The notes under the pieces: model-generated
Told to the model about the DNA's origin: nothing
Database searches by the model: none
What the model saw: only the letters and a program-made list of their open reading frames with translations
Part shown: piece by piece, positions 29,763-35,687 of the stretch
Layout: every line of letters starts with the position of its first letter
Position numbering within the stretch: the first letter of the stretch is position 1
Source of the DNA: Helicobacter sp. 13S00401-1
GTDB lineage: Bacteria > Campylobacterota > Campylobacteria > Campylobacterales > Helicobacteraceae
Length of the DNA: 36,220 nucleotides
NCBI RefSeq assembly: GCF_002272925.1
Contig: NZ_MLAR01000014.1
Span: 1-36,220 of the forward strand
Direction of reading: 5' to 3'
Position numbers and translations under genes: made by a program

Positions 29763-30159
29763 AAGATACCTCCGTAATATCAAAATTGTATTGTTTTTGG
29801 GAATATTGATATGTGGGTATTTTAGTACTTGTGATGCAAAATGAAGCAAGTGGAGATTAAAATTTTTATTAATTTTATACTTTTTAGTTTAGGTGAGTCT
29901 TGAAATGTTCCATTAAGTAAAAAGATTTTATCTTTTAGATTCTATAAATATTTTTATTGAGATAGATATATATGGCATTAGCTAAAAACTGCTTTAAGGC
30001 TAATCGTATTTAATGCTGCCTGTTAAAAACGATAGCAAGTCTTATGCATCAAGATCTCCACACTTATAGATATAAAATCTCTCAAATGCTTTTTAGTCTC
30101 TAATGGTAGTAGAATCTAGGGCTAAATAATCTTCATAATTCATAAAAGGAAGTGTCATC
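29763..30159. other. Divergent promoter region, doxDA / molybdoenzyme
   Basis: About 400 bases between two divergent genes. It is AT-rich, with two TAGAWTCTA words (near 29937 and 30110). I see no clear operator. The ribosome sites are GGAGGT (minus) and AGGAAG (plus). Shared control of the two genes is possible. Confidence 0.4.
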
Positions 30160-34466: not shown

Positions 34467-34585
34467 GTGTGATTAAAAGTTAGGATATAGCGCTTTGAAG
34501 CTAAAAAAGTTTTTTTTATCTATATAATGCTTACTTTTTCTAGATTCTAAGATTTATTTTTTAAGCAAGTAGAGTATAAAAGATC

Positions 34586-34675
34586 GTTTTATATAGGTAA
34601 TTCTAATCTCTTTACACTATTAACTAAATCTTTATTCCAATACTTTCTTTTTCTTACTGTTTATTCTTTGTGTGT
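34586..34675 (+). repeat. 90-bp inverted repeat, left arm
   Basis: This arm is the exact reverse complement of 35040-35129; I compared base by base and found no mismatch over 90 bases. It begins GTTTTATATAGG and ends CTTTGTGTGT. The arms enclose 364 bases. I see no target-site duplication outside them and no transposase inside. Confidence 0.85.
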
Positions 34676-34755
34676 TTTTTCTAACATAAAAACAAAAGGC
34701 AAAATACTAGATTACTAAGTCATGGATTCTCTATTCCCAGCACATTACAAAGCGT

Positions 34756-34937
34756 TAGCTTCCTTGAAAACGTAAATTTCCTTAAAAATAAAAAAACATA
34801 TATATGCAACGGTTCCATTAAAATGTGCCCATTAGCTCGCTTTGTTTCGTGGTGCAAAAAAATGGAATTAAGTAAGCAGTAGTGCTTACGCCATTTTTTT
34901 CAAGGAAACTTCGTTTTCAAGGAAGCTTCGCTTTGCT
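34756..34937. repeat. Internal repeats of the structured element
   Basis: AGCTTCCTTGAAAACG (34757-34772) is exactly inverted at 34912-34927; similarity extends through CAAAGCG on the outer side with a one-base gap. Within the right part, CAAGGAAACTTCGTTTT is followed directly by CAAGGAAGCTTCGCTTT (34901-34934), an imperfect 17-bp tandem repeat. These suggest local duplication inside the larger palindrome. Confidence 0.6.
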
Positions 34938-35006
34938 AGAAACGGAATTGAGCCAAGGCCCTCCCCTTGTTTGCCGAAAAAAACTTTTTTTCGGGGCTAA
35001 GGGGAG
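34856..35006 (+). ncRNA. Candidate structured RNA: nested hairpins
   Basis: Two nested stem-loops follow each other. The first has outer arms AAAAAAATGG (34856-34865) and CCATTTTTTT (34891-34900), and inner arms GTAAGCA (34872-34878) and TGCTTAC (34883-34889) with loop GTAG. The second has outer arms CTCCCCTT (34961-34968) and AAGGGGAG (34999-35006), and inner arms CCGAAAAAAA (34974-34983) and TTTTTTTCGG (34985-34994). A strong terminator follows at 35012. A transcript from the plus strand would be highly folded and cleanly ended. No known RNA family is recognised; it may instead be a repeat element. Confidence 0.35.
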
Positions 35007-35011
35007 TGAGG

Positions 35012-35031
35012 AGGGGTTAAACCCCTTTTTT
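35012..35031 (+). terminator. Strong Rho-independent terminator
   Basis: AGGGGTT (35012-35018), A, AACCCCT (35020-35026) and then TTTTTT. This is a GC-rich stem with a good T-run on the plus strand. It is more than 500 bases after the second marC gene, so it seems to end a transcript that begins within the 34.5-35.0 kb element or a long 3' UTR. Confidence 0.75.
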
Positions 35032-35039
35032 ATTAAAAC

Positions 35040-35129
35040 ACACACAAAGAATAAACAGTAAGAAAAAGAAAGTATTGGAATAAAGATTTAGTTAATAGTG
35101 TAAAGAGATTAGAATTACCTATATAAAAC
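35040..35129 (-). repeat. 90-bp inverted repeat, right arm
   Basis: Perfect inverted copy of 34586-34675. The outer ends lie next to unrelated DNA: AAAAGATC on the left and TATAATTCACC on the right. Confidence 0.85.
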
Positions 35130-35687
35130 TATAATTCACCAACCCAACAAATCAATAAACCTATCTATTAGTATAAAAGCCTAGCCATCTATCTAATTAA
35201 CCTACTAACCTACCAACTTATCATAGGGGCATAGAAGCATTAAACCTATCAATTTATAAATCGAATAATAGTCTTATATGTTAGTCTACTAATCCTAACT
35301 AACCTAATAAACCTAACCCCATCCTACTAGTCTAATAAGTCTATCTATTCATAACTCTTAGTCTAACACTATAAGTTATTAGTCTAATAAATCACCAACC
35401 TAACAAATCCAATAAACTAATAAACTAATAAACTAATAAATAAATCTATCTAATAACTCCACCTATCCATCAATCTATAAGTCTTACCTCCCCTCACACC
35501 TTAGTATGCATGTATAAAAACCTTATTAATCTATCTACCTACATTCTTTCCCTTCTCTCTTAGTCAAGCAAGGCCTTAAACCTATCTTCCCTTTCTCTCT
35601 CTCCTATCTCTCTCTTCTTATCCCTTTCTCTTATCTTCCCTTCCTTTACCCTAAAAAGAACAAGTTTCACACCTTATTTATCACTTC
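35130..35687. other. G-poor tract downstream of the chemoreceptor gene
   Basis: About 560 bases without a gene. The plus strand is nearly free of G, rich in CTA/CCTA/TCTAT motifs and, from about 35540, in CT-rich pyrimidine runs. It is the 3' side of the minus-strand chemoreceptor gene, whose transcript here would be purine-rich. It contains a short microsatellite at 35411-35440. No hairpin terminator is obvious. Confidence 0.6.
35411..35440 (+). repeat. AATAAACT microsatellite, 3.5 units
   Basis: Three exact copies of the 8-mer AATAAACT followed by a partial AATAAA. It lies in the G-poor non-coding tract, outside any gene. Confidence 0.8.

Follow-up and report, generated by a model that had tools for sequence, protein, structure and literature searches.

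A palindromic repeat family, probably a non-autonomous mobile element of the Helicobacteraceae, underlies a 90-bp perfect inverted repeat in Helicobacter sp. 13S00401-1

The long inverted repeat at positions 34583-35132 of the analysed stretch of Helicobacter sp. 13S00401-1 (hereafter the window; 36,220 nt of contig NZ_MLAR01000014.1) belongs to a family of repeats dispersed in the same genome, an assignment that is secure. We consider it probable that the window carries one copy of a non-coding, non-autonomous palindromic mobile element family that is specific to the Helicobacteraceae. Because its copies are dispersed and some of them lie within open genes, its behaviour is that of a MITE-type palindromic repeat with in-frame insertion resembling that of the Rickettsia palindromes.

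The perfect inverted repeat announced in a preliminary description of this DNA was confirmed: positions 34586-34675 pair with 35040-35129 over 90 nt, and the full arms (34583-34680 and 35035-35132, 98 nt each) are 98% complementary, with two mismatches, found only at 34585 and 34676. The 550-nt segment has a folding energy of -252 kcal/mol (z = -24), and since no shuffled sequence was equally stable, a chance origin of the fold is excluded. The copy reads inverted R end, G remnant, linker, H module, T module and R end. Its features, together with a second relic of the family in the window, are as follows:

34583..35132, + strand: whole element copy of the R-R type, 550 bp, between a convergent marC-family gene and methyl-accepting-protein-like gene
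34583..34680, - strand: left arm, an inverted R end (98% identity to 35035-35132; minus-strand match to the R-arm profile)
34583..34599, + strand: terminal inverted repeat (TIR) ATCGTTTTATATAGGTA, family form ATCGTTTTATATAGGCA (pattern search)
34673..34702, + strand: G-module remnant, final 30 nt, meeting the inverted R arm at the common motif TGTTTTT.CTAA (profile match; junction by eye)
34800..34839, + strand: L2 linker module (profile match)
34842..34946, + strand: H module, covarying hairpin GTTTCGTGGTGCAAAAAAATGG...CCATTTTTTT...GCTAGAAAC with conserved apical GCAGTAGTGC (profile, covariation)
34897..34930, + strand: two 17-nt repeats TTTTCAAGGAAACTTCG / TTTTCAAGGAAGCTTCG within the H module (imperfect tandem repeat)
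34956..35030, + strand: T module, C-rich/G-rich hairpin followed by GGGGTTAAACCCC and T6, end at 35031 (profile match)
35035..35132, + strand: right arm, R end in its usual position (R-arm profile match)
35116..35132, - strand: TIR at the opposite end, ATAGTTTTATATAGGTA (pattern search)
30003..30033, + strand: second, minimal relic, two family ends back to back, ATCGTATTTAATGC-TGCCTGTTAAAAACGAT (pattern match at 30017-30033)

The arms reach 90 nt because two R ends face each other in this copy, whereas most copies carry a single R end. The nested hairpins (apical GTAAGCAGTAGTGCTTAC at 34872-34889) and the imperfect tandem repeat were likewise found as described. The claim of a strong terminator stood in part: a short GGGG/CCCC hairpin followed by GGGGTTAAACCCC and T6 was recognised by eye before 35031, but its grade as strong is unconfirmed, since a consensus terminator scan did not list this site and gave 34872-34889 instead. 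No transposase ORF was found within the copy. The marC-family neighbour shares 89% identity with a protein of Helicobacter sp. 11S02629-2, a tortoise isolate (PMC5566214), and the element is absent from the same two-gene gap of this strain (L070, about 260 bp), where the intergenic sequence is too diverged to define a precise empty site. Between the element and the receptor gene lie about 550 nt of low-complexity, AT-rich sequence (35133-35687; CTATCTATTAGT / AATAAACTAATAAAC), and a similar stretch flanks another copy, L030. The relic at 30003-30033 is a 31-bp palindrome with nothing between its ends, either a minimal relic or a solo-end copy, located between divergent genes.

A DNA search of the strain's own genome (1.84 Mb, 59 contigs) yielded 178 matches at about 40 loci, and a second query based on another copy revealed more, bringing the total to about 50 dispersed copies; the counts rest on these searches and on fetched stretches. 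The possibility that the palindrome has no other copy, which the preliminary description had left open, is thus removed. In the fetched stretches, profiles of the individual parts matched 58 R arms, 46 H modules, 24 A ends and 23 B ends, with 50 T-module matches. Ends of three interchangeable types (A, B and R) surround a common hairpin core, in the arrangements A-G-linker-H-T-R, B-H-T-R and R-H-T-R, with a few A-G-inverted B or tandem composites, and elements measure 300-1150 bp. Full copies terminate in ATCGTTTTATATAGGCA / TGCCTATATAAAACGAT, and a search with the 17-bp TIR pattern returned 50 matches (26+24), compared with 12 (4+8) for the reversed control. Simple ORF calling on the same fetched DNA showed that convergent genes flank 25 of 46 element gaps vs 11 of 127 other gaps (p 8e-10), and divergent genes 1 of 46 vs 18 of 127 (p 0.03). 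Some copies sit at contig ends.

The absence of mismatches over 90 nt had been taken to mean that the arms are either very young or kept identical by conversion, and comparison of the R arms upholds this alternative. The window arms are 98% identical to each other, while the best other R arm reaches 86.6%. Similarly, the arms of L027, another R-R copy, are 95% alike over 60 nt and at most 87% identical to other R arms. By contrast, those of the R-R copy L039 are 81% alike vs 84-90% to other copies, and conversion is therefore not general. Within-copy and between-copy identities thus point to a recent local event rather than to general concerted evolution. At the inner junction, between the inverted R arm and the G-module hairpin, the shared TGTTTTT.CTAA motif suggests a template switch. 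We infer that the double-R form arose by local inverted duplication, through template switching at this short motif, and that in the window copy the duplication took the place of the original A end together with most of the G module; such an event would explain why the window arms are nearly identical when those of other copies are at least 13% different.

A covariance model of the H module gave matches in 27 of 121 Helicobacteraceae genomes, distributed over 8 of 13 genera; this genome has 38 copies and others have up to 16. Outside the family, a second model detected no core in a 399-genome sample of the order, with 11 candidates scored per genome, a depth at which weak cases could be missed. 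The G-rich module also precedes the core in G100 (L128-L131, by eye); there, the flanks contain many CTCGAG..ATCGAG inverted repeats. In five multi-copy genomes (G000, which is the genome of this strain, G090, G043, G108 and G100), the best match of every core was found in the same genome (81/81), as it was for 6 of 9 cores in G063. Identity over 168 nt is 100% between one core of G063 (L149 2454) and a copy from another genus (L103 in G076), suggesting recent horizontal transfer. As judged from sequence similarity, this clustering is the pattern of within-genome amplification accompanied by occasional horizontal transfer.

Copies inside genes were not found in Helicobacter sp. 13S00401-1. Outside this genome, long open frames contain 23 of 70 copies; beyond the core, 22 of these frames extend over at least 300 aa and the remaining one over 230. 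Pfam domains of the host ORFs include type I specificity subunits (HsdS), Eco57I-type and N6_N4 methylases, MBOAT and GDP-mannose dehydratase. In-gene copies occur in both orientations relative to the host gene, and an open sense frame is seen in 74% of the intragenic copies, vs 32% of the remaining foreign copies and 18% of those in this genome. The in-frame copies would yield peptides of the form SRPLRGAEK..GGSSASA..LEADKRGSP, and a predicted peptide of the insert in the Mod protein of L118 is GGSSASADLELEADK. Intact Mod homologues exist without the element segment, and the L118 insertion is flanked by a 12-nt imperfect direct repeat, CTGTTTGCCACA / CTTTTTGCCACA. In type III Mod proteins, several Helicobacter genomes have unrelated insertions between IKALF and FATPKPEALL, which makes this site an insertion hot spot (L118 1120-2309, G099). 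By BLAST, the core was also located in two H. cinaedi prophage records (BK070063.1 and BK070092.1), in each case within an annotated CDS. The encoded protein has 661 residues vs 515-518 in its homologues from H. himalayensis, H. canis and H. pylori phage; the shorter terminase homologues lack the segment immediately ahead of the MPPSYGKTE motif, and those of H. pylori phages are annotated as terminase. In G043 (L154-L162), nearly all copies lie within long ORFs, with extra segments rich in AGAATCT/AGATTCT repeats.

The stems of the core covary strongly. Among 37 diverse copies, changes on both sides were observed at 25 of 31 stem pairs, with 189 double-change cells vs a shuffled mean of 51 and a covariation score of 0.458 vs at most 0.117 in slid controls, and a larger copy set agrees. 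About half of the double changes (100/187) are of the transversion type. G-T pairs represent about 2.4% of the cells in the unfitted alignment of the 37-copy set, and the strand test is conflicting, with 25 G-T vs 32 A-C in the unfitted alignment and 40 vs 18 in a model-fitted alignment of other species. The double-change pattern fits wholesale stem replacement or DNA-level structure, and the low G-U counts suggest that the structure is kept at the DNA level, with the strand test inconsistent between alignments.

Strong covariation would also be expected of a dispersed structured RNA or of a cis-acting 3' element (terminator or mRNA stabiliser) selected at gene ends, whose hairpins act in RNA. 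The preference for the 3' side of genes, the T-run behind the T-module hairpin and the G-U over A-C excess in the model-fitted alignment all speak for this reading, but G-U pairs are few and not in excess in the unfitted alignment, in-gene copies occur in both orientations, there is no corresponding Rfam family, and in most multi-copy genomes the copies are most alike within the genome. We regard it as unlikely. For the regulatory RNA proposed in the preliminary description, the stems covary, but G-U pairs are rare and the strand bias conflicts between alignments. A search of the window and of relatives against Rfam returned no relevant match to a known structured RNA.

A classical MITE, that is, a deletion derivative of an insertion sequence (IS) mobilised in trans by an IS transposase acting on the 17-bp TIRs, is improbable. 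The earlier term MITE-like is apt for the behaviour of the element, which is short, non-coding, devoid of any ORF, bounded by short TIRs and dispersed over about 50 loci, in intergenic DNA. A slight within-copy matching of TIRs also favours an IS derivative (permutation p 0.03 at 17 nt; not significant at 24 nt). Against it, target-site duplications showed no excess over mismatched flank pairs for cores in other species, and none was seen by eye at full copies in this genome, in line with the preliminary description. Among the matches inspected, no long TIR-bounded copy with an ORF was present, and a parent IS with matching TIRs or a transposase was absent from searches with four Pfam families (Y1, DDE_Tnp_1, IS256-type and rve), none of which has a match in this genome (G000). 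In nine genomes tested, DDE_Tnp_1 and Transposase_mut (IS256-type) were absent from all and rve was detected in only two, which rules these three families out as the common mobiliser. In addition, mobile cores in other species lack these TIRs, as seen by eye. A plasmid origin was ruled out, with no match.

Mobilisation of a REP/REPIN-type element by a RAYT or an IS200/IS605 Y1 transposase is highly improbable. The element is palindromic, prefers gene ends as REPs do (PMC3733652) and often has GTAG in its apical loop, but this motif lies in the loop rather than at the stem foot and is replaced by GAAG in many copies. Moreover, Y1 matched 29 other genomes of the family and none of the element-bearing genomes listed for the H module, a presence/absence pattern that disfavours REP/RAYT. 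Finally, an inversion relic or an assembly palindrome, suggested by the long, near-perfect arms, is hardly credible, and is refuted as the only explanation, because both arms are copies of a single end module, the R end, of which the fetched stretches contain 58, rather than inversion breakpoints, and because the two-R-end layout recurs at L039 and L027 with different arm sequences.

We thus favour a family of non-autonomous palindromic mobile elements. Copying would bring its hairpin core (H and T, often preceded by the G-rich module) to further positions, for the most part downstream of genes, and in some species the core would land in frame within genes; in Helicobacter sp. 13S00401-1, the core would travel between 17-bp TIRs of the three end types. 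The family may spread as DNA hairpins, and its effect on neighbouring genes is probably passive, at most that of a weak terminator in the + direction. As a speculative extension, to which we give little weight, palindromic DNA would spread throughout the family without a transposase, by replication-linked template switching at hairpins. Such switching would rewrite both stem arms at once and would yield inverted end duplications like that of the window, as well as repeated peptide insertion into Helicobacter proteins and a phage terminase. The element family accounts for a set of dispersed intergenic repeats, which may break assemblies, and for additional stretches found in methylases and HsdS proteins of Helicobacter.

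No published description of the family was found in the open-licence literature. The label of a new type, given in the preliminary description, is supported in part, by the lack of an Rfam family and of a describing paper; as far as could be checked in these sources, the family is first described here. Most known in-frame mobile palindromes come from Rickettsia and Wolbachia, and others have been described, for example from an archaeon (PMC2996958). An independent Helicobacter family, whose inserts are hosted by restriction-modification genes as well as by a prophage terminase and by both sugar and acyl enzymes, would constitute a second system, and a more tractable one, in which to study the movement of these elements and to learn if the peptides they insert are tolerated or put to use by the host proteins.

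Compared with known systems, the behaviour of the element is closest to that of the Rickettsia palindromic elements (RPEs), for in-frame insertion, and of pneumococcal BOX, for modular ends and convergent sites. RPEs and Wolbachia palindromes (reviewed in PMC10969869, which cites Ogata et al. 2000) share with it a conserved palindromic core of about 150-180 nt, dispersal between and within genes, in-frame reading in unrelated proteins and the lack of a known transposase. This is a likeness of behaviour, with no sequence relation claimed, between different bacterial classes, and the Helicobacter element differs from RPEs in its larger size and modular build, in the exchangeable ends and the TIRs that it has in this genome, in inserting in both orientations and in one prophage terminase case. 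The BOX repeats of Streptococcus pneumoniae (PMC3049150) are also modular and MITE-like, with distinct end modules, a variable interior, secondary structure and over-representation between convergent genes. However, their modules and sequence are different, and BOX has tandem boxB units, whereas the interior modules are mostly single here and the ends recombinable (A-R, B-R, R-R, A-B). REP/REPINs with RAYT (PMC3733652) resemble the element as palindromes located mainly at gene ends, some of them intragenic, with GTAG in many copies; yet REPs are 20-40 bp long, have GTAG at one of their ends and are usually accompanied by a RAYT, unlike an element of 300-1150 bp whose listed bearers lack Y1. 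PARCELs (PMC2996958), also reported from Helicobacter hepaticus, are likewise palindromic coding sequences, but their products are amphipathic repeats in tandem (WDTSNVxxM...), which do not resemble the peptides of the Helicobacter element.
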